Shown: piece by piece, positions 36,572 through 52,433 of the stretch
How positions within the stretch are numbered: the first letter of the stretch is position 1
Layout of the letters: every line of letters starts with the position of its first letter
Assembly: GCA_009841255.1 (NCBI GenBank)
Contig: VXMD01000018.1
Coordinates: forward strand, 62,001 to 126,000
DNA from: Candidatus Poribacteria bacterium
GTDB lineage: Bacteria > Poribacteria > WGA-4E > WGA-3G
DNA length: 64,000 bases
Direction: 5' to 3'
The notes under the pieces: model-generated
The model's input: only the letters and a program-made list of their open reading frames with translations
Database searches by the model: none
What the model was told of the DNA's origin: nothing
Position numbers and translations under genes: made by a program

Positions 36572-39500
36572 GTGAAGCCTGCTAAAAATACGATTCCACT
36601 TATAGGAACCTTGTTGGTATGTTTCTGTCTCACCGTATTAGGACTTCCCACTGCCCCCGCGGAACATCACGAAACGCCACAAGCCCCCGTTAATTACAAT
36701 CTCGACATCCGTCCCATTCTTGCGGACAATTGCTATGCCTGTCACGGACCAGATGCGAAGAGTCGACAAGCCAACCTGCGACTCGATACGAAAGCAGGAG
36801 CGTTCTCCGAACCGAGTGGATATCCGGTCATTATTCCAGGTAAACCGGAAGAGAGCGAACTCCATATTCGCGTCATTTCCAACGATGACAATTACCGCAT
36901 GCCCCCAGCGGGTTTCAACAAGACCCTGACACCGGAAGAAATTGAAGTGATTACACAATGGATTCTCGAAGGTGCGAAATGGGAAGAGCATTGGGCATTC
37001 ACCACACCGACCCGTCCAACGCCGCCAGATGTCAAGAACGGAGATTGGGTGCGAAATCCGATTGATGCGTTCATACTCTCACGCCTTGAAAAAGAGGATT
37101 TACAACCGGCAAATGAAGCCGATAAGCGGACGCTCATCCGACGTTTAAGTTTTGATCTCACTGGCTTACCTCCGACGCGTGAGGAAATCCATCAATTCCT
37201 TGCCGACGATTCACCCGACGCTTATGAAAAAGTGATTGATGCCTTTATGGCAAAGCCGGAATACGGCGAACATCAGGGACGCTTCTGGTTAGATGTCGCA
37301 CGTTACGGTGACACGCACGGACTCCATTTAGACAACTACCGTGAAATGTGGCCCTATCGCGACTGGGTTATTGAAGCCTTCAATAAAAATATGCCGTTTG
37401 ACCAGTTCACGATCGAGCAATTAGCGGGTGATCTTTTACCAGAACCGACCCTTGAACAAAAAATTGCCACCGGTTTTAACAGATGCCATGTCACGACAAG
37501 TGAAGGCGGCTCGATCGATGAGGAATACTATGTCCAATACGCGATTGACAGAGCAGATACCACCTCTACTGTCTGGATGGGATTAACTGCCGGATGCGCG
37601 CAGTGCCACGATCATAAATACGATCCGATCACGCAGAAGGAATTCTATCAACTTTACGCCTATTTCAACAATATCACCGAAAAGGCGATGGACGGCAACC
37701 GCAAGGACTCTCCTCCCGTTGTGAAGTTGCCGACGCCCGAGCAGGAAACCGAACTCGCTGCATTCGATGAACAGATTACCGAACTGGATACGCAGACGAA
37801 AGCACCTATCCCTGAAATAGATGCGACACAAATCGCTTGGGAAAACAGGACACCGCGTTGGGCAACACTGAAACCGACCGCGCTTTACTCAAAAGGCGGC
37901 GCGACGCTTGAAGTCTTAGAGGATAACTCCATATTGGTCAGTGGTACTAACCCTGAACAGGAGATTTACGAGATCATCGCAGAACTGCCACCCGGAAACC
38001 AATGGAGTGCCGTCCGCTTAGAAGGTCTCACACACGAATCTTTACCGAAAGGTGGGGTTGGCAGAAGTGATAACAGCAATGTCGTCCTGACTGATTTTGC
38101 CCTCTTCATCGCTCCACCCGCAGCGGACAGCGAAACACCACCCGAAACGGAAAGCACCGATACCGAGGTTAGTGCCGAAACGCAAGCGGAGGCGGGAAGC
38201 ACCGTTGATGCCGACGCTGAAGCAGCGGCGGAAAATACGCCTGCTGTCGAGACCGGTGCCGAAGACCAAACGGACAGCGAATCAACAGAGGAAGCATGGG
38301 CAGAGGCAGAAGATGAGATGGAAAGCACCGATACCGAGGACCCGTGGACCCCGATCCAAGTCGTGCATGCGTGGGCAGACCACGAGCAAGCACTCGGGGA
38401 AAACAATCTCGAGGGTATCGTTTCAAATGCGATTGATGACAAGCCGGAAACCGGATGGGCACTCGATAGAAAGCGCGAAAATCGGCAAGCCATCTTCCTT
38501 GTCGCCGCTCCGTTTGGGATGGAAGGCGGCAGATTGAAAATCCGTCTTAAGCATGAATACGACTTGCGGCAGAAGCAGCTTGGACGCTTCCGGCTCGCCC
38601 TTACAGATGTCACAACGATTTATCCGATCGGCTCCAAAATCACTTTAGGCGACTGGCACGCCGCGGGTCCGTTCACCGCTGAACACGGCAACCTCGCTTT
38701 CTACAAAGTCTACGAACCGGAAACGAAAGATGTCAACACAGGCGATACATTTGAGGTGAACGGAAAAACCATCAAATGGGAGAAGCAGACACATTGGGTT
38801 GACGAACAGGTGCACAACGACATCGTTGGCGAAAGTAGTGCCACCTACATCTTCCGAAACATCGCCTCTGTGACGCAACAGAAAGCACTCCTGTACATCG
38901 GAAGCAACGATGCCCTGAAAGTTTGGGTCAACGGCACGGAACTGCTCACCAAAAACGTTCAGCGGGATGCCGCTGCCGACCAAGAACAGGTGCAAGTCAC
39001 TCTCAAACCCGGTAACAATGCGCTGCTCCTGAAAGTCGTTAACTACTCGGGTCCCTCGGGTTTCTACTTCCGTATGGAAAGTGCACCACCGATGGTGCCA
39101 GCAGATATTGTTGATATCGCGGGAATGCCGCGCGGTGACCGTGAAACCGCACAGACGGAACAGATCCGAGATTACTATCGGAAGAACATTACGTTAGATA
39201 AGACAGTCAACGAAAATACCAAGCGCGCCTTCGCAGATTTGCAAACGCTTTTTGCTGACCTATCAGAGGTTCAAGGGAAGCGGGACACGCTGGACGCATC
39301 CCTCACGACTACGCTTGTCATGCAAGAGCGAGAGGAACCGAGAGGTGCCTATGTCTTAGCACGTGGTGAATATCAGCACCGAGAGGAACAGGTTTATCCG
39401 CAAACCCCAACAGTGTTGCCGCCGCTGCCGGAAGACACAACCCCGGATCGTCTCGGTTTTGCGAAGTGGCTGCTTTTACCGGAACATCCACTGACTGCTC

Positions 39501-40399
39501 GTGTGGCGATTAACCGTTTCTGGCAAGATGTCTTCGGTATCGGAATTGTAGAAACGGCGGAGGATTTTGGGACACAAGGGAAACCGCCGGTGCATCCGGA
39601 ACTTCTTGACTGGCTCGCGACGGAATTTGTTGCATCGGGATGGGATGTTCAAGCCATGCTCAAATTGATGCTTACCTCGGCAACATATCGTCAGAGTGCC
39701 CAGGTCACACCCGAAAAGTTGGAACGCGATGCAGATAACGCCTTACTCTCCCGCAGTCCACGGTATCGACTGGATGCTGAAGTAGTGCGAGATAACGCAC
39801 TCGCCCTCAGCGGTTTGCTGTACACTAAAATTGGGGGTCCGAGTGTTAAACCGCCACAACCGGATGGACTCTGGAAAGCCGTCGGGTTTACTGGATCTAA
39901 CACCGATACGTTTGTTAAAGATACGGGTGCCGATAAGGTGTACCGCCGCAGTCTCTATACATTCTGGAAGCGCACCGCCCCCCCACCGCAAATGAATATC
40001 CTGGACGCGCCGTCACGTGAAGCGTGTACAATTCGGCGTGAACGTACCAACACGCCGATGCAGGCGTTAATGTTGATGAACGACCCACAGTTCTTTGAAG
40101 CGGCTCGCGTTTTTGCGGAGCGCACCATCAAGGAGGGAGGCGACACACCGGAAGCACGTATCGCCTATATTTTTGAGATGGCAACCGCTCGGCTTCCAAA
40201 GCCGAAAGAGGAGGCACTGTTGTTGAAGACGTTCCAAGTCCACTACCAGGAATTGGAAGCAAACCCGGAAGCCGCGAAAGAACTAACTGCTGTGGGTGAA
40301 TCACCACCCGATGAGACGTTAGATGCGGTCGAAGTCGCGGCATGGACGATGATTGCAAACCTGATTCTTAATCTGGACGAAGTCCTCAATAAGGGATAA
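36572..40399 (+). CDS. PSCyt1/DUF1549/DUF1553 surface cytochrome-like protein
   Basis: A 1275-residue exported protein of the planctomycete-type cytochrome family. The signal peptide ends near residue 28-30. A haem site CxxCH is at 54-58 (CYACH), inside the PSCyt1 domain. DUF1549 spans about 150-360 and includes a second CAQCHDHKYDP motif. A Glu/Thr/Ala-rich linker at about 512-592 separates it from a beta-rich region with an ALLYIGSNDALKVWVNG segment (about 700-850). The C-terminal DUF1553 lies at about 960-1230. Family members with DUF1501 partners are common in Planctomycetes and Poribacteria, with proposed roles in polysaccharide turnover; the reaction is unproven. Confidence 0.9.
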   Translation: MKPAKNTIPLIGTLLVCFCLTVLGLPTAPAEHHETPQAPVNYNLDIRPILADNCYACHGPDAKSRQANLRLDTKAGAFSEPSGYPVIIPGKPEESELHIRVISNDDNYRMPPAGFNKTLTPEEIEVITQWILEGAKWEEHWAFTTPTRPTPPDVKNGDWVRNPIDAFILSRLEKEDLQPANEADKRTLIRRLSFDLTGLPPTREEIHQFLADDSPDAYEKVIDAFMAKPEYGEHQGRFWLDVARYGDTHGLHLDNYREMWPYRDWVIEAFNKNMPFDQFTIEQLAGDLLPEPTLEQKIATGFNRCHVTTSEGGSIDEEYYVQYAIDRADTTSTVWMGLTAGCAQCHDHKYDPITQKEFYQLYAYFNNITEKAMDGNRKDSPPVVKLPTPEQETELAAFDEQITELDTQTKAPIPEIDATQIAWENRTPRWATLKPTALYSKGGATLEVLEDNSILVSGTNPEQEIYEIIAELPPGNQWSAVRLEGLTHESLPKGGVGRSDNSNVVLTDFALFIAPPAADSETPPETESTDTEVSAETQAEAGSTVDADAEAAAENTPAVETGAEDQTDSESTEEAWAEAEDEMESTDTEDPWTPIQVVHAWADHEQALGENNLEGIVSNAIDDKPETGWALDRKRENRQAIFLVAAPFGMEGGRLKIRLKHEYDLRQKQLGRFRLALTDVTTIYPIGSKITLGDWHAAGPFTAEHGNLAFYKVYEPETKDVNTGDTFEVNGKTIKWEKQTHWVDEQVHNDIVGESSATYIFRNIASVTQQKALLYIGSNDALKVWVNGTELLTKNVQRDAAADQEQVQVTLKPGNNALLLKVVNYSGPSGFYFRMESAPPMVPADIVDIAGMPRGDRETAQTEQIRDYYRKNITLDKTVNENTKRAFADLQTLFADLSEVQGKRDTLDASLTTTLVMQEREEPRGAYVLARGEYQHREEQVYPQTPTVLPPLPEDTTPDRLGFAKWLLLPEHPLTARVAINRFWQDVFGIGIVETAEDFGTQGKPPVHPELLDWLATEFVASGWDVQAMLKLMLTSATYRQSAQVTPEKLERDADNALLSRSPRYRLDAEVVRDNALALSGLLYTKIGGPSVKPPQPDGLWKAVGFTGSNTDTFVKDTGADKVYRRSLYTFWKRTAPPPQMNILDAPSREACTIRRERTNTPMQALMLMNDPQFFEAARVFAERTIKEGGDTPEARIAYIFEMATARLPKPKEEALLLKTFQVHYQELEANPEAAKELTAVGESPPDETLDAVEVAAWTMIANLILNLDEVLNKG

Positions 40400-40448: not shown

Positions 40449-41927
40449 ATGGACCCAATTAAGGAATACTTGAAACTTGAAACCCGTCGCCAATTCTTTG
40501 GTAAATGTGCGTCAGGTCTGGGTGGTGCGGCACTCGCTACGCTGCTACCGAATGCCGTTGTTAACGCGCTCACAAGTCAAGCCAAACCGAGATTTGGGGG
40601 TTTGCCGGAACTCCCACACTTTGCCCCGAAAGCAAAACGCGCCATTTACCTGTTTATGTCGGGTGCGCCGTCCCAACTGGACCTCTATGACTATAAACCG
40701 AATATGGGGAAATGGTTCGATACGGATCTGCCAGAATCCGTCCGGATGGGTCAACGCCTCACAACGATGACTTCAGGACAGGATAAGTTCCCGATTGCGC
40801 CGTCCATATTTGAATTCAAGAAGTATGACAACGGGGGTGACGGCGTCTGGATGAGCGAACTGCTACCGCACACTGGCTCGGTGGCAAAAGACCTCGCGGT
40901 TATCAAAACGGTACACACCGAAGCGATTAATCACGACCCCGCTATTACTTTTTTCTGTACCGGCGATGAAAGTCCGGGTAAACCGAGTCTCGGTGCCTGG
41001 TTGAGTTACGGACTCGGTAGTGAAAACGAAAACTTGCCTGCTTTTATTGTGATGAACGCCACATGGAGCGGTCCGAAGGGTGCACAGGCACTCTATAATC
41101 GGCTTTGGGGTTCTGGTTTCCTCCCCTCGGAACACCAAGGCGTGCTCCTTCGCAGCCAAGGCGATCCTGTCCTCTTCCTCTCGAATCCGGAAGGTGTCAA
41201 TGAAAAGACGAGGAAACAGATGTTAGATACCCTCGTTGAACTCAACAAGGAGCTCTACGAGGAGGTCGGCGATCCCGAAACGCATGCGCGCATCTCACAA
41301 TACGAAATGGCATTTCGTATGCAGACGAGTGTGCCTGAATTGACCGATTTATCTCAGGAACCTGAGCACGTCTTAGAACTGTATGGACCTGAGGTAAAAA
41401 CCCCCGGCACGTTCGCGAACTGCTGTATCCTCGCACGTCGGATGATGGAGCGTGATGTTCGTCTCGCTCAAATCTTCCACCGTGGGTGGGATCAGCACGG
41501 ACAACTGCCCACGAACATCCGCAACCAGGCTCGCGATATCGATCAGCCTTCGGCTGGCCTAATCAAGGATTTGAAACAACGCGGCATGCTCGACGAAACC
41601 TTAGTCGTCTGGGGCGGCGAGTTCGGACGCACTGTCTACTGCCAAGGCACACTCACGCCGGATAATTATGGGCGTGACCATCATCCGAAATGCTTTACAC
41701 GTTGGATGGCTGGTGGCGGTATCAAGGGGGGTGTCGTTCATGGTGAAACCGATGACTTCAGTTACAATATCGTCAAAGACCCTGTTCACGTTCGGGATAT
41801 AAATGCCACGATTCTCCATCTCCTCGGCATCGATCACGAGCGGTTAACTTTTAAGTTCCAAGGGCTTGATCATCGGTTAACAGGCGTTGAGGAACAAGCG
41901 CGGCTCGTCCGTGAGATTTTAGCATAA
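40449..41927 (+). CDS. DUF1501 protein with Tat-like signal
   Basis: A 492-residue member of DUF1501, an alkaline phosphatase/sulfatase-like fold. N-terminal [20 protein letters not shown] (residues 13-32) looks like a Tat signal (twin Arg). Core pieces include [20 protein letters not shown], the W-GGEFGRT segment near 387-400, and [15 protein letters not shown]. It starts 50 bases after the PSCyt gene and is its usual partner; the pair is probably one operon. A terminator follows. Confidence 0.9.
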
Positions 41928-42048: not shown

Positions 42049-43212
42049 ATGCAGACTTATCACGGGACTGAAGAAACCCTCGATGCGAGAACGTTCCTCT
42101 CAATTTTAGACGGGGACTATGAAAGCATCTTTTTGACGAGCTGTGTCATTGAAGGCGCAGTTATTTTTTCTACGGAATCCGCGGTAAAATCTGATGGACT
42201 GTCCGTGGTTAACAAGGAAATTGTCTGCATCGGATGCACGTTTAAAAACGTCGTCAAATTTGAGAAAACCCATTTCCAAAAGGAGGTTTTTTTCGGAAAT
42301 TCCGATTTCCAAGAGACTGTGCATTTTCGTGGGGCAGTCTTTCAAAATACATGCGACTTTGGAGAGTCGAAGTTTGAGGGTCCGGCACTCTTCCAAGGAA
42401 CCTCCTTTCACGGAAAGACGAACTTTCGGCAAACATGTTTCCAGCAAGTTGCTGATTTTAAAAAGGTGGAGTTCCAAGAGAACGCTGTTTTTAGGAATGC
42501 TGTGTTCCAAGATGCCGTGCATTTCGGTTGGGCCTCTTTCAATAAAGCGTTGGACTTCGTACAAGCACATTTTTTCGAAAGGACTGCTTTTAATCATTCA
42601 AAATTCCGCGGAAAAATAGATTTCACTTCCGCAAGATTCGCTATCTCGGCCTCCTATCAAGATGTCCGTTATACGACAGACACAATATGGCAATGGCTTC
42701 GGAATAAGTGGAAACAGCAACCTGATCAGCCAACGGAATTCTATCTGGACAGTGAAGATATTAACGAGGTTTTGAACCCATTTTTTAAACGTTACGTAGC
42801 GGATCAGCAGTTCATACGCGCCTTTAAAGAGAAAAATCCATTTTGGGCTCAAATTTGGAGGTGGAGTTCGGATTACGGTCGCAGTTTAGCACTTTGGGCA
42901 CTGTGGTCCCTGCTCATCGCCCTCTCCTTTTCGCTTCTGTATATGACGCCGGGACCTTCATGGCTTCCGGAACGGTTCCAGGAGCGGATGCCACGATTCC
43001 ATCAAGTCACTGGAACGGACACGGGGCTACCCTTAACGTTTTGGAAATCTTTTTACTTCAGTATTGTCACGTTTACAACTTTGGGATTCGGGGACGTTGT
43101 TGCGGACAATACTTTGGCGCGTATTCTCGTTACGCTTGAGGTCATCTTGGGATATATCATGTTGGGCGGTTTGATTAGTATCTTCGCCAATAAACTCGCT
43201 AGTCGGAGTTAA
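42049..43212 (+). CDS. Pentapeptide-repeat potassium-channel-like membrane protein (copy 1)
   Basis: A 387-residue protein. The N-terminal ~200 residues contain many units of the FxxxxF type (e.g. VHFRGAVFQNTCDFGESKF), a pentapeptide-repeat right-handed beta helix. A linker with the FFKRYVADQQFIRAF segment (about 245-259) follows, then a two-helix pore module: TM1 (LALWALWSLLIALSFSLLYM), pore helix, and selectivity filter TTLGFGD (about 343-349), then TM2 ending in a short cytoplasmic tail. The filter TxGFGD differs from the usual TVGYGD but is a recognised variant. It probably forms a K+-selective channel gated by its N-terminal domain. Paralogue at 44823. Confidence 0.85.
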   Translation: MQTYHGTEETLDARTFLSILDGDYESIFLTSCVIEGAVIFSTESAVKSDGLSVVNKEIVCIGCTFKNVVKFEKTHFQKEVFFGNSDFQETVHFRGAVFQNTCDFGESKFEGPALFQGTSFHGKTNFRQTCFQQVADFKKVEFQENAVFRNAVFQDAVHFGWASFNKALDFVQAHFFERTAFNHSKFRGKIDFTSARFAISASYQDVRYTTDTIWQWLRNKWKQQPDQPTEFYLDSEDINEVLNPFFKRYVADQQFIRAFKEKNPFWAQIWRWSSDYGRSLALWALWSLLIALSFSLLYMTPGPSWLPERFQERMPRFHQVTGTDTGLPLTFWKSFYFSIVTFTTLGFGDVVADNTLARILVTLEVILGYIMLGGLISIFANKLASRS

Positions 43213-43282
43213 CCCTTATTTCACTTGGAAACCCTCGATTCAATCGCTCACACGCGACATCTTACCCCTTCCTGGAGGCTCT

Positions 43283-44761
43283 ATGCCTAAACTATTTGTC
43301 AAAAATTTTATAAACATCCGCGAAGCAGAAATTGATATGGATAAAACTTTGGTGGTTTTCATCGGTGAGACCGCCAGCGGGAAAAGCGTCCTTGCGAAGT
43401 TGCTCTACCTTTTCCAAGAGTTAATCCGTGACTTTCGCCAATACATCAGGCAAATTAATACCTACCCCCCAGAACATCTGAAAATATCCGGTCAGGAAGT
43501 GTCAACGGTGTTTCGCACGCAAATTGCCCGTAAATTCCGTGAGTTTTTTGGTGATGCGACAGGGTTTCCAACACTGAATGGCAGTCAGCAAGAGGACGTA
43601 AACCTTAAACGGAAACCGACCGGGGACTCGCCGATAGCCGATGGCCGCTTTGAAATCACCTACCACTATACAGCGGAAAGTGCGATCAGATTGATATTAA
43701 CCGATGAGGAATCGCTCCATATCGAATTACCCGCCGTTATGGACAAAGTTGAAGACCTCTGTTACAACTTATTGGAAAAACTGAAAAGCGTTGACATAAA
43801 GCCGTCTCACAGTATCGCAACGGAACCGGAGTCTGGGAAAGAAACAGATGCGTCCGCAGAGGATACCCCACAGAGAAATAAAAACACCGACCAATTCCAC
43901 TATATTTTGAATATGGCAATCGGAATGAGTGACATCACGGAGACATTAGCGGGTAAACATCGCGACGGTCTCTTCATTCCCGCAGATAGGAATATTGCTT
44001 CCAACTATCCAGATGCCCTAAAAAGAATCTTCTATGGTGGTATCAAAAGCGATCTTCATACGCGTACTGCCACCCGTTCACGTGCCAATCTGCATCTGAT
44101 TGCACGCTTTTTGGAAAAAAATGAAGAATTCCTTGATACCTTTAGCACGCAGAACTTTCGGAACCTTTTTGACGAAAGAATTGCGGAAGAAGCCAAAGAG
44201 GTTGATAAACCGATAATGGAATTCCTGCTCAAGAAGATTTCCCTTATCTTAAACGGTGAATATGAAACAATAGACAAGATTTCTCAATCTCGACTTTTTT
44301 CCCATCCGACCGGTGAGAACACAACTTTTTTAGAAAATGCATCGACAGGGCAGCAAAATCTCATTCGAATCCTACAAGATGCTTTCATGAGTATGCTTTA
44401 CAATGAAATGGTTTTTCGCGTGATTGAAGAACCCGAAGCACATCTCCATCCAGCAACGCAGAAACACCTGATGCATATCATTGCCTTGATGCGGAATCAC
44501 ATTGATAGCCAGATCGTTATGACCACCCACAGTCCGTATCTTTTGGCGGTGCTTAAAAACCTCTTAACCGCCGGACGACGGTCAAAGAAGAATCCAAAAG
44601 CCGCTGCTGAAATAGAGGGGCGTATCCCAAAGTTATGTTGGCTCATGCCTGAAGATGTGGAAGTTTATCACCTTAAAGACGGGATAAGCCGTGCCATTGT
44701 CCAGCCGAAAAAGAAATCGATTCTGCCGAATCCGCTTGCTGACCTTCTTACAGGATTTTGA
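43283..44761 (+). CDS. ABC-type AAA ATPase between channel genes
   Basis: A 492-residue ATPase (AAA_15/21-like). Walker A is GETASGKS (28-35), after the typical FVKNFINIREAEIDM start. The signature region is STGQQNLIRIL (about 355-366) and Walker B FRVIEEPEAHLHP (about 377-389), with switch His MTTHSPYLL. Residues about 120-330 form a helical arm. There is no TOPRIM domain, so it is not an OLD-type nuclease. It starts after GGAGG and lies 70 bases past copy 1; the next channel gene follows 61 bases later. Likely senses or regulates the channel pair. Confidence 0.88.
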   Translation: MPKLFVKNFINIREAEIDMDKTLVVFIGETASGKSVLAKLLYLFQELIRDFRQYIRQINTYPPEHLKISGQEVSTVFRTQIARKFREFFGDATGFPTLNGSQQEDVNLKRKPTGDSPIADGRFEITYHYTAESAIRLILTDEESLHIELPAVMDKVEDLCYNLLEKLKSVDIKPSHSIATEPESGKETDASAEDTPQRNKNTDQFHYILNMAIGMSDITETLAGKHRDGLFIPADRNIASNYPDALKRIFYGGIKSDLHTRTATRSRANLHLIARFLEKNEEFLDTFSTQNFRNLFDERIAEEAKEVDKPIMEFLLKKISLILNGEYETIDKISQSRLFSHPTGENTTFLENASTGQQNLIRILQDAFMSMLYNEMVFRVIEEPEAHLHPATQKHLMHIIALMRNHIDSQIVMTTHSPYLLAVLKNLLTAGRRSKKNPKAAAEIEGRIPKLCWLMPEDVEVYHLKDGISRAIVQPKKKSILPNPLADLLTGF

Positions 44762-44822
44762 CGCAGAGCACTCCCCGCTGCCCTATTATAAAAAAATAGA
44801 AACCAAGGTAAAAAAACGACAG

Positions 44823-45980
44823 ATGTACGAGAAGCACGGAGAAACAATCAAAGCACAAACCTTCCTTGATGCATTGCAAAGCGATGCTGTATCTGTTACT
44901 TTCACGAATTGCACGATTGAAGGGGTTGTTGATCTTTTTTTTCTGGAATTGGAGCGGGATGAAAAGGATCGTATCCTTCTGAATAAGAAACTCTCCTGCA
45001 TCGGGTGTACGTTTAAAAACATCGTTAATTTCCGGACGGTCGTCTTCCAACAAGAGGTGGATTTTCGGCGTACCCTCTTTGAGGCAGACCTCGATTTCGA
45101 TGAAGCGATTCTACACGGCACCTGTGCCTTCCGTGAAGCCATCTTTCAGAGACGTGCGGATTTTCACAGTGTGATTTTCCATAGGAGTGCCAGTTTTTGG
45201 CGGGCGAGATTTCACAATGTCGCTGATTTCCATAGGGTTCAATTCCGTGAAAACGCAGTTTTTCATGAGGCTAACTTCTTCACTGAAGCCAATTTTCGGC
45301 GTGTATTGTTCCAAGGTATCCTCGACTGCACAGGGACCTGGTTTTCTGAAACGATAGCGTTCAACAACGCCACATTTTTCGGTACCGCCAACTTTACTGC
45401 CGCACAGTTTGTCTCTGTCGCTACTTTCCGCGACGTTAAGTATATCCCAAATACACTCTTCCACGCCGTGAAAGCCAAACTTAGCAGAAAACAGCATCGT
45501 CCGACTGAGTTCTACTTAGACAGTCGCCATATAGACGAAGTTGCGAGTCCTTTTTTTAAGAGGTACGTCGCCGACCAGCAGTTCATACGTGAATTCAATC
45601 AGGCAAATCCGATATTGGCACAGTTATGGCGATGGAGTTCTGACTACGGTCGGAGTCTGACACTTTGGGCGTTCTGGTCTCTTTTCTTTGCGTTTCTGTT
45701 CGCGCTTGCTTACCTGCCGCTCCCGACGTGGGTGCCAGATTGGATGCAAGACTGGTCCCCCCACTTTCATCAAACGACGGGTGCTTACAGCGACGAGCCA
45801 CTAACGTTTTGGAACTGTTTCTATTTCAGCATTGTTACCTTCACAACGCTTGGTTTCGGAGATGTCGTCGCCGACAATGCCGCAGCGCGTTTTCTCGTTA
45901 CACTGGAAGTCATCTTTGGGTATATGATGTTAGGTGGATTAATCAGCATCTTCTCAAACAAACTGGCGAGTCGGAGTTAA
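44823..45980 (+). CDS. Pentapeptide-repeat potassium-channel-like membrane protein (copy 2)
   Basis: A 385-residue paralogue of copy 1 with the same order: N-terminal repeat beta helix (VNFRTVVFQQEVDFRRTLF and related units), a conserved linker (FFKRYVADQQFIREF), TM1, pore and filter TTLGFGD (about 341-347), and the same C-terminal tail LISIFSNKLASRS. The start ATG44823 is supported by AAGG 12-15 bases upstream; the frame extends to 44691 into the ATPase. The sequences of the pores are almost the same while the N-terminal halves differ, indicating duplication with changed sensor parts. Confidence 0.85.
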   Translation: MYEKHGETIKAQTFLDALQSDAVSVTFTNCTIEGVVDLFFLELERDEKDRILLNKKLSCIGCTFKNIVNFRTVVFQQEVDFRRTLFEADLDFDEAILHGTCAFREAIFQRRADFHSVIFHRSASFWRARFHNVADFHRVQFRENAVFHEANFFTEANFRRVLFQGILDCTGTWFSETIAFNNATFFGTANFTAAQFVSVATFRDVKYIPNTLFHAVKAKLSRKQHRPTEFYLDSRHIDEVASPFFKRYVADQQFIREFNQANPILAQLWRWSSDYGRSLTLWAFWSLFFAFLFALAYLPLPTWVPDWMQDWSPHFHQTTGAYSDEPLTFWNCFYFSIVTFTTLGFGDVVADNAAARFLVTLEVIFGYMMLGGLISIFSNKLASRS

Positions 45981-46003: not shown

Positions 46004-48421
46004 ATGCCAACCAGAATTTTACAGACATTCTTCGTTGTTATCTTCATCGTATTTGCTTCCACAACATACATAACAGCACATGACTCCGCGCCGTCATCGA
46101 CTGCGGACTATTTTGACTATATCACGCTTTTCTCTCAGGGACGTATCACGCGTTTTACGGAGATGCCGATTCGGGTGTATATCTCACCTGTCCTGAAAGA
46201 GAGTCCATACCTCCCTGAAATCCGATACGCCATGCAAGCGTGGCAGACTGCTAGTGATGGGATTCTCCTGTTTGAAGAAACCGAGACCCCTCAGAACGCA
46301 GATATCCGTGTGAGTTGGGGATATACCGGTCTCCTCGCTGATTTCCAAGATACGAGACTCGGTAGTGCGGAGTTAACACGCCTCAAAGATAGCGTCCAAA
46401 TCGGCACATTTTCTAACGGATTAGAAGTCGGTTCTACCACTGCAGTTGAAGACCGATCCACCGAAACAGAACAGGAGATCAGTTTTACAGTCGAGGTTAT
46501 CCTGATGTTAGAAGGTTACGGAACTGTCGGGGAATTGTCGCAGGAAGAGATGCGAACGGTATGCATCCACGAATTCGGGCACGCAATCGGCTTGTGGGGA
46601 CACAGTCCACATCCCGGAGACATCTGTTATCCGACAGCAACGGCACAACAGCCCTCTGACCGCGATATAGTGACGCTGCGTAAACTCTATAACACCCCCC
46701 TTAATACACCACAACACGATGTCGCCATCAAGGTCCTGAAAACCGAGATTGAACAGAAACCGTATGCAGACCCTCAAACACAGCTGCGGACACGCTATCT
46801 GCTCGGAGCCGTCTACTTCGACAAAGGCGACATACCCGCCGCTATCGCTACCTTCCAAACCTGTAGGACCTTAAATCCCAAGTTTCAACCCGCAATAGAA
46901 AAACTCATTCAAATCTACCACGAAACAGGAAAGACCGATCAAGCCATAGCACTTGTTGAGAAACGGGTCGCGGAGAAACCGGCGGCAGCGGATTACAATA
47001 CGCTCGGCATCTTCTACTATGACAAAAAGGACGTTGAAAAGGCGGTACAAGCCTTTGAAAAGGCACTGCACATCGCACCCTATCACAAAGCCGCACGGCG
47101 AAACCTACATCAACTCCTCCGAGCAAAAGGCTTCAAAGCACTGGCATCAAAGGATTTCGAGACTGCCACAACCACTTTTGAAAGGGTGCTGCAGATGGAG
47201 CCGCTCGACGCGCCTACCTATCAACTGATGGGCAATGGATACGCCCAAGCCGGGCAATTTGAACAGGCGATCCACTACTATCAGAAAGCGATTGACCTGA
47301 ATCCTGTCGACGTGCTGACACAGCATAACTTCGCACACTGCTATAACAATTACGGTGTATCGCTACGAAACCGTGGAAAATGGGACGAGGCGATTGATGC
47401 GTATCGCAACGCTTTAAGGTTGATGCCGACGCTCCAAATCGCCCGAACGAACCTGAGCGACGCATTTACCCGAAAGGCGAATGCACATAGTGAAGTAGGC
47501 GAATTAGACGAAGCCGTGGCGGCGTATCTCGAATTACAGAAACTCCATCCGGATGAAATGCATATCCGTAATTTGCTCGGAGAACTGTATCTGAAAAAAG
47601 GGGACTACGCCGAGGCGTTGTCGGTATTTCAGCACGTCTATACCGTTAATCCCAACGCTGATCACGCCTTACATAACCTGATCGCCGCCTATCATCATTA
47701 TGCCCGAAGCCTTAGCGATACGGAAGATTACACGACAGCGATTCAACTGCTTGAAGAGGCACTCCGACTCGCGCCTACTGATCTGAATTTACGGCTGAGT
47801 CTGGCGAATGCATACCAAGGTGCTGAAGACTACGAGCGTGCCGCTACGGAAATATCACGCGTTTTGGCGCAATCACCGGGAAATCTACAGGCACAAGAGG
47901 AGCAGATTAACCTGAAAATCCGACGGGGTAACGCGCTAATGCGGCAACGGCAGCACACCGCCGCGCTCGCGGAATTTGAGGCGATTCCCGAATCCGCGCG
48001 CGACATCGAGATTTATAACACCATCGGTTATCTCCATCTCGTGGAAGGTGAACACGCGAAAGCGTTCGCTGGTTTTGAAACTGTGCTACGGAAAGACCCG
48101 ATTAACAGGCCCGCTTTTAGGAACCTACTGTCGTTAGAATCCCAGTTGATTCGTAGACGTCGGAATGAAATGAGAGAGGCTACCCTCGTCCAGGTCCGAT
48201 GCCTCCTCGCTATCGCCTTGATGCATCGAAAACAGTCGACCGCGGCGGTGGAAAAATATCAGCTTGCGCTGACGTCTGGTAGGAAATTTGGTAAATCTGA
48301 AGAGATAGATTCGCGCCTTATTGAAACGGGTAGACGACTCGCCAATTGGTTCCAGCAACATGGGGACGCTGAAAACCGTGAGATGATTCTCGATTGGGTC
48401 GAAGAGCACGGTGGTAACTGA
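46004..48421 (+). CDS. Matrixin-type metalloprotease with TPR repeats
   Basis: An exported 805-residue protein. Signal peptide about residues 1-26 (TFFVVIFIVFASTTYITAHD). A matrixin-like zinc protease domain lies at about 40-230; its motif HEFGHAIGLWGH is at 189-200, with MxxxE-like turn not seen clearly. About 260-800 is at least ten TPR units (DKGDIPAAIATFQTCRTLNP, AGQFEQAIHYYQKAIDLNP and others). A combined protease-TPR chain is unusual. It starts 24 bases after copy 2 with AAAAGGG upstream, so it may share its transcript. Chosen over an earlier frame start inside copy 2. Role unknown; possibly cell-surface. Confidence 0.85.
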   Translation: MPTRILQTFFVVIFIVFASTTYITAHDSAPSSTADYFDYITLFSQGRITRFTEMPIRVYISPVLKESPYLPEIRYAMQAWQTASDGILLFEETETPQNADIRVSWGYTGLLADFQDTRLGSAELTRLKDSVQIGTFSNGLEVGSTTAVEDRSTETEQEISFTVEVILMLEGYGTVGELSQEEMRTVCIHEFGHAIGLWGHSPHPGDICYPTATAQQPSDRDIVTLRKLYNTPLNTPQHDVAIKVLKTEIEQKPYADPQTQLRTRYLLGAVYFDKGDIPAAIATFQTCRTLNPKFQPAIEKLIQIYHETGKTDQAIALVEKRVAEKPAAADYNTLGIFYYDKKDVEKAVQAFEKALHIAPYHKAARRNLHQLLRAKGFKALASKDFETATTTFERVLQMEPLDAPTYQLMGNGYAQAGQFEQAIHYYQKAIDLNPVDVLTQHNFAHCYNNYGVSLRNRGKWDEAIDAYRNALRLMPTLQIARTNLSDAFTRKANAHSEVGELDEAVAAYLELQKLHPDEMHIRNLLGELYLKKGDYAEALSVFQHVYTVNPNADHALHNLIAAYHHYARSLSDTEDYTTAIQLLEEALRLAPTDLNLRLSLANAYQGAEDYERAATEISRVLAQSPGNLQAQEEQINLKIRRGNALMRQRQHTAALAEFEAIPESARDIEIYNTIGYLHLVEGEHAKAFAGFETVLRKDPINRPAFRNLLSLESQLIRRRRNEMREATLVQVRCLLAIALMHRKQSTAAVEKYQLALTSGRKFGKSEEIDSRLIETGRRLANWFQQHGDAENREMILDWVEEHGGN

Positions 48422-49358: not shown

Positions 49359-52300
49359 GTGCCGACACTCAACATCAAACTGACACATAAACCCATCAAA
49401 AACTACTACACCGAACTTGCGGAATACGCGAAAGTCGGCGTAGAACACGAAGGCGCAGTCCGAACCGCATTCCAAAACCTACTCCAACACTACTGCCGAC
49501 AAGCAGACCTCATCCTCGTCTGTGAAAAGACACGTTACACCCCACAGAAAAGGCGAATCCAGATAGACGGTGAAGTTGTTGACGCATTCGACTTGCCACA
49601 TGGACACTGGGAAGCAAAAGATGCACACGACGACCTGCCTACAGAAGCACGGAAGAAATTGGAAGCAGGCTACCCGTTTAAAAATATCATCGTTCAGTCG
49701 CCGACCCACGCACTCCTCTATCAAAACGGACACCTCCGACTTGATGTAGACCTCACGGATCCAAGCAACCTTATCAATCTGTTAAACATCTTCTTTGCGT
49801 ATCGGGAAGAAAACATCGTCGATTGGTACGCCGCCGTTGAAGAATTCAAAGAAAAGGTCCCGGTGTTAGGGCGCGGTGTCACAAAGCGTATTGAGACCGA
49901 AATGCAGGATAATCCCGAATTCCGACAAGCATTCGGGAATTTCCATCAACAATGCCGCGCATCTATTGACCCGAACCTCACCGAGGCACAGGTTGAAGAA
50001 ATGCTTATCCAACACCTTCTCACCGAGCGAATTTTCCGCACCGTCTTTGACAATCCTGATTTTACCAACAGAAACATCATTGCCCAAGAAATTGAGAAGG
50101 TGATTCAGATCCTCACCCGTCGTTCTCCGAGTCGTTCCGAGTTCCTCCGTCCTCTGGATCCGTTCTACGTTGCGATTGAGAAAACCGCCGCCACCATCAC
50201 CGATTTCTCACAGAAACAGGCTTTCCTAAATACTGTTTACGAGCAGTTCTTTCAAGGTTTCTCCGTTGATATCGCTGACACGCATGGTATCGTCTACACA
50301 CCACAGTCAATCGTCGATTTCATGGTGAAAAGCGTTGATCACGTTCTCGTGACTGAATTCGGACGCTCATTGTCGAATATGGGTGTTCACATTATCGATC
50401 CATTTGTCGGTACTGGGAACTTCATCGTCCGACTCATGCAGGAGATTCGGGGGCAGCGATTGCCACAGAAATACCGTGAGGAGCTCCATTGCAATGAGGT
50501 GATGCTGCTCCCTTACTACATCGCCAGTCTGAACATTGAGCACGCCTATTATGAGAAGACCGGCAATTATGAACCTTTTCCACATATCTGCTTCGTGGAT
50601 ACGTTTGATACGTTCGGTCTGATGGACGCACCCCACCAAACTGGAGAGTTCACCTATTTTACGCCGGAGAATACGCTGCGGGTGGAGGAGCAGAAAGAGG
50701 TTCCAATGTTTGTTGTTATCGGAAATCCACCCTATAATGCCAGACAGGCAAACGAGAACGATAACAACAAAAATAAGCCGCACGCAGGGGTTGATGGTCG
50801 GGTGCGCGCGACATACGCCGCCGCTTCGAGCGCACAACTGAAAAATAAACTCTATGATCCCTATGTGAAAGCAATTCGGTGGGCAACAGACAAACTGGGT
50901 GATGCAGGCATTGTCGTATTCGTGACAAATAATAGTTTTATCGACGCACAGATGTTTGATGGCATGCGGCAACATCTTGTAGATGAGTTTGATACACTCT
51001 ATATTCTGGATTTAGGTGGTAATATCCGTAAGGGACAGCCGGGAGATTCCAATGTGTTCGGCATTCAGGTCGGAGTGAGTATCAATGTCCTCATAAAATC
51101 AAAACAAAATCAAGGGTTTCCAGCACGTATCTTGTATAATGACGAAACGGCAGATCTGCCTAAAGAACGGACATTTGCGTTTCTAGAGGAAAAGCAGAAC
51201 ATCGGCAATTTGGAATGGCAGGAACTGACACCCGATAAACGACAGACATGGCTCACGGCGGATCTCCACACCGATTTTGACACCTTTATCCCCATGGGAA
51301 GCAAATCCGCAAAGGCAACCCGGGGCGTTGTAGAGGATGCCTTTTTTAAAACCTATAGTGTTGGTGTGCTAACAGCCCGTGATGCCTGGGCTTACAACTT
51401 CAACCGAAACGCCCTTGCTGAAAATATGCAAGCGATGATGGAATTTTATAACTCAGAGGTATCTAAGTGGGAACGACGCGTTAAACGGGCACAAAGTGTT
51501 GATGCTTTTGTATCAACCGACAGTAGAAAAATAAAATGGACAGATCGATTGAAGACAGAACTAACAAAGGGCAGATTAGTCGAGTTCGCACCGGAACAGA
51601 TAAGGAATTCTCTTTATCGTCCATTTACAAAATCTAACCTCTACTTTGATAAATTGATGAACCAGCGGACTTACTTGTTCCCTTCTATCTTTCCAACACC
51701 TGATACTGAGCTGGATAATCGTGTGATATGGCTCAAAGTTGGACAAGAGTGGCCAATGTTCGCGCTAATGGCAAACCAAATTCCTGAAGCCCTACCCCAA
51801 GGGGCCTCTCAATGCTTCCCCTTCTACACCTACAACGAAGATGGGGCAAATCGGCGCGAAAACATCACCGATTGGGCACTGTCCCAGTTTCGAACGCATT
51901 ACCGAAACGACACTATCACAAAGTGGGGCATCTTCCACTATACCTACGGGATCCTGCATCATCCCAATTATCGCGAGCGGTATCAGGAAAATCTCAAGCG
52001 AGACTTACCACATATCCCTTTTGCCGAAGACTTCTGGGGATTTGCCAACGCGGGTGCGCGGTTGGCAGACATCCACATCAACTACGAATCGCAACCCGAA
52101 TACGATAAACTTAATCCCACAGAGACACCAGGGATGCAAGTGGATATGTCTATAGAGCGGATGAAATTCTCCAAAGATAAGACGCAATTGAGATACAACG
52201 ACTTTCTGACATTAGAGGGTATCCCTCTGGAGGTGTTTGATTATCGGTTGGGAAATCGGTCTGCGCTGGAGTGGGTGGTGGATCAGTATCGTGTCAAAAT

Positions 52301-52433
52301 AGATAAACGGAGCGGCATCGTCAACAATCCGAATCGCGAGGAAGACCCGGAGTATATCCTCCGCTTGATTGGGCAGGTGATTACGGTGAGTCTGGAGACG
52401 GTAGATATTGTTAACGGATTGCCTGCGCTTTAG
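49359..52433 (+). CDS. One-protein restriction-methylation enzyme (type ISP/IIG-like)
   Basis: A 1024-residue putative bifunctional enzyme. N-terminal region has VDAFDLPHGHWEAKD with D75...E85-x-K87, a possible PD-(D/E)xK nuclease site. The N6 adenine methylase core is clear: motif I IIDPFVGTGNFIV (about 345-357) and motif IV IGNPPYN (about 453-459). The C-terminal ~350 residues resemble the type ISP specificity region (YRPFTKSNLYFDKLMN, then RTYLFPSIFPTPDTE). No helicase domain is present, unlike true type ISP enzymes. The start is GTG with GGAG seven bases before. Single-gene restriction-modification is proposed; the target site is unknown. Confidence 0.82.
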   Translation: MPTLNIKLTHKPIKNYYTELAEYAKVGVEHEGAVRTAFQNLLQHYCRQADLILVCEKTRYTPQKRRIQIDGEVVDAFDLPHGHWEAKDAHDDLPTEARKKLEAGYPFKNIIVQSPTHALLYQNGHLRLDVDLTDPSNLINLLNIFFAYREENIVDWYAAVEEFKEKVPVLGRGVTKRIETEMQDNPEFRQAFGNFHQQCRASIDPNLTEAQVEEMLIQHLLTERIFRTVFDNPDFTNRNIIAQEIEKVIQILTRRSPSRSEFLRPLDPFYVAIEKTAATITDFSQKQAFLNTVYEQFFQGFSVDIADTHGIVYTPQSIVDFMVKSVDHVLVTEFGRSLSNMGVHIIDPFVGTGNFIVRLMQEIRGQRLPQKYREELHCNEVMLLPYYIASLNIEHAYYEKTGNYEPFPHICFVDTFDTFGLMDAPHQTGEFTYFTPENTLRVEEQKEVPMFVVIGNPPYNARQANENDNNKNKPHAGVDGRVRATYAAASSAQLKNKLYDPYVKAIRWATDKLGDAGIVVFVTNNSFIDAQMFDGMRQHLVDEFDTLYILDLGGNIRKGQPGDSNVFGIQVGVSINVLIKSKQNQGFPARILYNDETADLPKERTFAFLEEKQNIGNLEWQELTPDKRQTWLTADLHTDFDTFIPMGSKSAKATRGVVEDAFFKTYSVGVLTARDAWAYNFNRNALAENMQAMMEFYNSEVSKWERRVKRAQSVDAFVSTDSRKIKWTDRLKTELTKGRLVEFAPEQIRNSLYRPFTKSNLYFDKLMNQRTYLFPSIFPTPDTELDNRVIWLKVGQEWPMFALMANQIPEALPQGASQCFPFYTYNEDGANRRENITDWALSQFRTHYRNDTITKWGIFHYTYGILHHPNYRERYQENLKRDLPHIPFAEDFWGFANAGARLADIHINYESQPEYDKLNPTETPGMQVDMSIERMKFSKDKTQLRYNDFLTLEGIPLEVFDYRLGNRSALEWVVDQYRVKIDKRSGIVNNPNREEDPEYILRLIGQVITVSLETVDIVNGLPAL

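Follow-up and report, generated by a model that had tools for sequence, protein, structure and literature searches.

ATP-sensitive K+ (KATP) channels, composed of SUR and Kir6, are regulated by an ABC-type ATPase acting on a K+ channel with two transmembrane (TM) helices per subunit (2TM) and a G-F-G selectivity filter. A scheme in which a soluble sensor opens a depolarising membrane channel has been proposed for RexAB and for Sbash gp30/gp31 (PMC6426596, PMC12894663). DUF4747 is found in both RexA and gp30, and four TM segments are present in each of RexB and gp31 (PMC6426596); a study of a Rex-type system of P. putida reports no depolarisation in a dye test (PMC12894663). Here we describe a locus from a Candidatus Poribacteria bacterium (assembly GCA_009841255.1, contig VXMD01000018.1, positions 62,001 to 126,000 of the forward strand; this stretch of 64,000 nucleotides is the window below) in which two paralogous putative K+ channels, A and B, flank a stand-alone ATPase gene. 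Our best explanation, to which we give a little less than an even chance, is that one Poribacteria family has an ancestral, syntenic chromosomal locus for pentapeptide-repeat 2TM K+ channels, with A and B as their subunits, and that the ATPase was added to it as a regulator of channel B.

The initial annotation of this DNA had described two pentapeptide-repeat paralogues with a TTLGFGD pore around an ABC-type ATPase, all on one strand, and the domains and coordinates found here match. Invariance of ATPase residues refers to an alignment of 23 rows.

42049..43212, + strand: channel A open reading frame (ORF), 387 amino acids, N-terminal pentapeptide-repeat beta-helix and 2TM K+-channel-type pore
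43075..43095, + strand: TTLGFGD selectivity-filter motif of channel A, read from the sequence
43283..44761, + strand: ATPase ORF, 492 amino acids, stand-alone AAA_15/AAA_21 protein (ABC/RecF/OLD-like)
43364..43387, + strand: ATPase Walker A, residues 28-35 (G28, A31, S32, G33, K34 and S35 invariant)
44342..44356, + strand: ATPase signature-like STGQQ, residues 354-358 (S354, G356 and Q358 invariant)
44420..44437, + strand: ATPase Walker B VIEEPE, residues 380-385 (invariant)
44528-44530, + strand: ATPase H416 (invariant)
44823..45980, + strand: channel B ORF, 385 amino acids, pentapeptide-repeat beta-helix and 2TM K+-channel-type pore
45843..45863, + strand: TTLGFGD selectivity-filter motif of channel B, read from the sequence

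The start given for channel B is the ATG common to its relatives; the ORF list starts it at a GTG at 44691. The ATPase matches the Pfam model AAA_15 (6.4e-27) and also AAA_21, and its nucleotide-binding motifs, which we take to be Walker A, a signature-like motif, Walker B and a switch histidine (H416), are intact. Pfam, PADLOC and alignment revealed neither a Toprim domain nor another effector domain at the C-terminus of its 492 amino acids. Terminator-like sites on the + strand were found neither between A and the ATPase nor between the ATPase and B, and the three promoter-like sites at the locus are fewer than in shuffled sequences.

Both channels exceed the Pfam cut-offs for Pentapeptide_3 (four to five stretches) and Ion_trans_2, with values of 1.2e-19 and 1.3e-12 for channel A; the IRK transmembrane model stays below its cut-off. 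In their whole genome, A and B are the only genes with Pentapeptide_3 above cut-off. TTLGFGD is invariant across 31 aligned channels. End to end, A and B are 51% identical, with 37% identity over residues 1-225, 70% over the pore part (275-385) and 86% over residues 327-385. The N-terminal halves thus differ, as the initial annotation had said, and its 'almost identical' pore halves hold for the part from the filter to TM2, not for the pore part as a whole.

An AlphaFold2 model of channel B (m1418aca271fa; mean predicted local distance difference test score, pLDDT, 77.7; predicted template modelling score, pTM, 0.54) shows residues 1-205 as a beta-helix predicted with confidence; after a poorly modelled linker come TM1 (275-297), a pore helix (329-342) and TM2 (353-384). 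VIA-align relates the beta-helix to the pentapeptide-repeat proteins MfpA, Qnr, AlbG and HetL (Z 14-16.5), followed by unrelated beta-helix lyases (Z 12-14). Foldseek placed KirBac3.1 first, at E 0.018, so that nothing reached E 0.001; KirBac3.1 was also among the phmmer matches. The marks of a 2TM K+ channel, namely a T-x-G-[YF]-G filter, a pore helix and two TM helices, are present by sequence, Pfam and model, and those of a pentapeptide-repeat protein, tandem repeats and a right-handed quadrilateral beta-helix, by Pentapeptide_3 and model residues 1-205. The pores are accordingly named K+-channel-type, and their selectivity for K+ is predicted from the sequence. With two TM segments, both ends of the channel would lie on one face of the membrane, presumably the cytosolic one; no signal peptide was apparent by eye on the channel, and the beta-helix would then face the cytosol. 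A strongly acidic DNA-mimic beta-helix of the Qnr/MfpA type, docking in a DNA-binding ATPase, finds no support in the N-terminal parts, as their net charge is near zero (27 K/R and 27 D/E in B, 24 and 27 in A). The ATPase model was poor (mean pLDDT 44.6) and was left unused.

Distribution was counted in one set of 84 genomes of the phylum (G handles), searched with ATPase and channel profiles at E-values of up to 1e-40 and 1e-20, respectively. Loci L034-L055 and the loci with G handles come partly from the same genomes, and all genome counts are from the set of 84 alone. The ATPase was present in 28 of the 84 genomes (27 of 38 in the bacterium's own genus, g1, and one of two in genus g18) and the channel in 60 (37 of 38 in g1, both in g18, 17 of 18 in the sister genus g19, and G049, G054, G060 and G061). 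In every g1 genome with the ATPase (27/27), it immediately precedes channel B and shares its strand, with a gap of 36-205 bp (median 62; 26 genomes measured). The initial annotation would have been given up had the ATPase never occurred near such channels in other genomes, and the adjacency leaves it standing. We conclude that the ATPase-B pairing is real and kept in g1.

The profile search found the ATPase in none of the 18 g19 genomes, 17 of which have one or both channels. Channel B is the most widely kept member in g1 (35/38 genomes). It was missing from G033, which has A only and thus lacks both ATPase and channel B, from G015, where the contig ends inside A, and from G002, a genome 86% complete in which the profile search found neither channel nor ATPase. 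The strict order A-ATPase-B, with A directly before the ATPase, occurs in two of the 38 g1 genomes (G000 and G024), and the three genes share one cluster in 11 (G000, G003, G004, G006, G014, G016, G021, G024, G029, G032 and G083); G017 carries a remnant of channel A. The unit A-ATPase-B as first named is not the evolving unit.

In G018 (L113; the same genome as L052), an insertion of ~1.3 kb splits the pore-coding part of channel B next to an intact ATPase. It contains an ORF of 373 amino acids (L052 8738-9859), which presumably encodes an IS605-type OrfB.

The three genes lie within a conserved neighbourhood, assigned by Pfam and synteny.

36572..40399, + strand: upstream syntenic gene, PSCyt1/DUF1549/DUF1553 protein
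40449..41927, + strand: upstream syntenic gene, DUF1501 protein
46004..48421, + strand: downstream syntenic gene, matrixin-like/TPR protein

The order at the site is the DUF1549/1553 protein, the DUF1501 protein, variably A and a Gfo/Idh/MocA oxidoreductase (Pfam GFO_IDH_MocA), the ATPase, B and the TPR/matrixin-like protein. In g19 the same DUF1501 site holds A, the oxidoreductase and B at varying completeness, often as A-oxidoreductase-B. The ATPase-B boundary is unbroken in 27 genomes. Upstream of the ATPase lies the oxidoreductase, channel A or the DUF1501 gene, and downstream of channel B a different gene block is found in seven genomes. In eight g1 genomes (among the loci L087, L093 and L132), the block behind channel B or A opens with a lipoprotein-like gene (C11) and continues, where the contig permits, with a WD40 protein in which caspase-like motifs were seen by eye, and then a DUF4384-like protein; this block occurs both with and without the ATPase. 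A Type ISP restriction-modification enzyme lies close to the locus (window 49359-52433; Type_ISP_C, 6.7e-98), and only some relatives have it at or close to this position.

The history of the site was read from channel trees of 45 and 80 rows and a TPR tree of 30 rows. Both channel trees leave out the truncated channel of G015, and the larger one also those of G049 and G054. The first of two synteny surveys, the ATPase, TPR and 45-row channel trees, the selection analysis and the gap and segment comparisons cover genomes other than G082 and G083; the remnant search includes G082. In the 80-channel tree the A/B split precedes the g1/g19 split, which makes the A/B duplication older than the arrival of the ATPase; both channels predate the ATPase at the DUF1501 site. 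Gene conversion between A and B was rejected, given their separate clades in both channel trees. The ATPase tree splits like the neighbouring TPR tree and the two are largely congruent; the ATPase was therefore probably already present in the g1 ancestor. Two changes of ATPase presence are required on the TPR tree, which we read as two losses, one in a clade of seven genomes (eight counting G082) and the other in G033, which has lost B as well. A tblastn search of nine ATPase-less loci (E 0.05, 23 queries) detected no ATPase remnants. By gene order and trees, the locus is syntenic and vertically inherited.

One genome departs from this pattern. The channel B of G024 groups with the ATPase-less clade (starred support) and its ATPase with those of G008 and G017. 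In six of seven 55-residue segments, G024 B is nearer to that of G012 (78-98%) than to that of its relative G008 (65-89%). These data indicate that the ATPase of G024 is that of its own lineage and that the channel B next to it was imported from the clade that lacks the ATPase. A further grouping concerns channel A: that of four g1 genomes (L114, L115, L122, L123) groups with A of two g19 genomes (L142, L143; support 98), and all six have the order DUF1501-A-DUF1501, a segment that was likely exchanged between g1 and g19.

For selection, pairs were limited to 0.1 < dS < 1.2 (dN and dS, nonsynonymous and synonymous divergence), and genes with less than 80% coverage or fewer than 600 bases were dropped. 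Median pairwise dN/dS was 0.129 for the ATPase (126 pairs), 0.101 for B (181) and 0.123 for A (23), next to 0.090 for the oxidoreductase (94), 0.110 for the TPR gene (126) and 0.030 for DUF1501 (186). All three genes are under purifying selection, the ATPase over the span of g1, which argues that the three-gene observation is not a chance one.

PADLOC matched the ATPase best to AriA (114.7 bits) and then to PDC-M29A (65 bits); in all, this ATPase core is hit by 136 PADLOC families, and channels A and B gave no PADLOC match up to E 1. Among 72,556 plasmids the ATPase had no match, and among 50,697 phage records three had partial matches of low identity. Scanning viral contigs turned up two relatives that match over the full span (L154 and L155, with 31-43% local identity over parts), and G049 (L100), of the same order, holds one with about 30% identity over 263 residues. 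All three have a related small protein of 139-145 amino acids directly downstream, forming two-gene modules with the AAA_15 ATPase (L154 5001-6712, L155 4995-6715, L100 7060-8528). Two of the three small proteins weakly match PDC-M29B (E 3e-6 and 1e-5), and Pfam gives nothing above cut-off for the small protein, which in our reading is nuclease-like from an E-L-K motif. The ATPase may descend from such ATPase-effector pairs, and thus possibly has a defence ancestry; the channel downstream of it here predates the pairing. Downstream of the ATPase homologue in G063, a g18 genome, a gene with caspase-like and SUMF1-like motifs (by eye) lies among lipoprotein-like genes (L055 9332-11311).

In the explanation that we tentatively prefer, g1 acquired a stand-alone AAA_15 ATPase that became fixed next to channel B, on the side of the oxidoreductase gene. 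This ATPase would form an ATP-driven dimer in the cytosol, bind the near-neutral beta-helix of channel B and alter the channel's open probability, and K+ flux would thereby respond to a signal that depends on ATP or a ligand. Channel B would work also without the ATPase. Physical coupling and the direction of gating are presumed in this scheme. Alternatively, one of the genome's many AAA_15 ATPases landed at an intergenic site that tolerated it and has been passed on with the conserved locus as a passenger, with no functional tie to the channel; we regard this as a serious possibility, if a somewhat doubtful one. The bacterium's genome has 33 AAA_15 matches, the channels are older than and independent of the ATPase, other genes (A, the oxidoreductase, the block behind B) come and go at the site, and the clade of eight keeps B without it. 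A passenger fits less well with a same-strand, short-gap boundary that is unbroken in 27 genomes while others break, and with purifying selection on the ATPase across g1. We rank a regulator above a passenger because only the ATPase-B boundary is unbroken while both flanks change, and because G033 lacks both genes. Several observations nevertheless weigh against a regulator. Eight g1 genomes have channel B without the ATPase (G012, G022, G023, G025, G028, G031, G035 and G082), and both channels persist without it in g19. In G063, the ATPase homologue (44% identity, at 4.24 Mb) is ~2.35 Mb away from the channel (1.89 Mb). The 27 ATPase-B cases share one ancestry and are thus close to one event, and the G024 ATPase, placed beside a channel that evolved without an ATPase, speaks against tight co-adaptation. 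Coevolution was assessed by partial distance correlation given the TPR gene (500 permutations). The ATPase-B signal was weak (0.18, n=21; 13/500 permutations as high), as also expected of a passenger, and that between ATPase and oxidoreductase was stronger (0.45, n=14; 3/500); the other values were 0.04 for B-oxidoreductase (n=17; 207/500), -0.06 for ATPase-DUF1501 (n=21; 337/500) and 0.22 for B-DUF1501 (n=28; 11/500). Distance correlations do not mark out B as the partner of the ATPase.

The oxidoreductase might itself be the partner, an NAD(P)-binding protein acting with one hetero-oligomeric A + B channel to which the ATPase is a local accessory. The A-oxidoreductase-B order at the g19 DUF1501 site and the Pfam match are in line with this very improbable arrangement, and B without both A and oxidoreductase in G008, G023, G031 and G082 argues against it. 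The initial annotation had suggested a membrane-depolarising defence. In such an abortive system the ATPase would sense infection and open the channel, collapsing the membrane potential, as proposed for RexAB and gp30/gp31. The ATPase superfamily does include defence ATPases (AriA 115 bits, PDC-M29A 65 bits), and in three distant relatives the next gene downstream encodes a small protein, which weakly matches PDC-M29B in two cases; two of the three loci are viral contigs. We nevertheless consider a dedicated depolarising defence unlikely, as the channels are older than the ATPase, are kept where it is absent and match no PADLOC model, and the locus occupies a fixed chromosomal site with vertical inheritance and no plasmid copies. 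Moreover, a K+-selective pore alone is expected to hold or raise the membrane potential, not to depolarise. It is about as improbable that partners were swapped: an ATPase of a PDC-M29-like lineage, which elsewhere drives a small nuclease-like protein, would have adopted the pentapeptide-repeat K+ channel already present here as its output in a stress or infection response, and the beta-helix would be the rod on which it docks. This, too, would amount to a bacterial 2TM K+ channel whose gating depends on a soluble RecF/OLD-like ATPase.

The eight genomes with B and no ATPase, together with the exchanged B of G024, are ready-made controls for the regulator that we tentatively favour. Should the ATPase prove to be a passenger, the A-oxidoreductase-B locus found across the family still offers a K+-channel system, tractable and as yet uncharacterised, in sponge-associated bacteria. 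The literature searched held no characterised pentapeptide-repeat/ion-channel fusion, no description of a role for a pentapeptide beta-helix on channels and no bacterial K+ channel with pentapeptide repeats that is accompanied by an ATPase, which bears out the initial annotation's remark that no system with this set had been described; no paper on PDC-M29 was found either.

Several known defence systems share parts of this locus. PARIS AriA, the best PADLOC model, is likewise an AAA_15-type ABC ATPase without its own nuclease domain, yet 136 families match, and AriB (Toprim/DUF4435) is absent from the ATPase and the five scanned window neighbours, the neighbours being DUF1501, oxidoreductase, channels and TPR. 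OLD and Gabija GajA do not fit, with no Toprim match in the 492 amino acids and no helicase (GajB) among the scanned neighbours. PDC-M29 has a related ATPase (65 bits), but the gene downstream here is a channel instead of the small protein PDC-M29B, and tblastn matches to the small protein were confined to L030/L100, L154 and L155; neither the window nor the g1 loci searched gave any. With AAA_15 and Pentapeptide_3/Ion_trans_2 domains, and neither DUF4747 nor four TM segments, the locus does not belong with RexAB or gp30/gp31 as characterised in PMC6426596. A mobile defence island is not supported, given the fixed DUF1549-DUF1501...TPR context, the largely congruent trees and the lack of a plasmid match.

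The channels themselves are not confined to this family. Fusions of PF13576 and PF07885 in the same domain order occur in genomes of the phylum Poribacteria outside the family (G049, G054, G060), and a Haladaptatus plasmid protein has the same two domains in that order, with Ion_trans_2 just under cut-off. The pentapeptide/ion-channel fusions examined elsewhere have no ATPase of this kind adjoining. Like KirBac-type and other 2TM K+ channels, A and B have two TM helices, a pore helix and a T-x-G-F-G filter. They differ from KirBac in that the sensor domain is an N-terminal beta-helix and the protein stops after TM2, at residues 387 and 385, without a C-terminal regulatory domain; Pfam gave no match to the C-terminal cytoplasmic (IRK C-terminal) domain of KirBac and Kir. 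If the ATPase gates the channel, bacteria would provide a case in which a soluble RecF/OLD-like ATPase controls a 2TM K+ channel by way of a pentapeptide beta-helix. The likeness to KATP channels is then one of analogy only: SUR is a homologue of membrane ABC transporters, whereas the Poribacteria ATPase is soluble and RecF/OLD-like.

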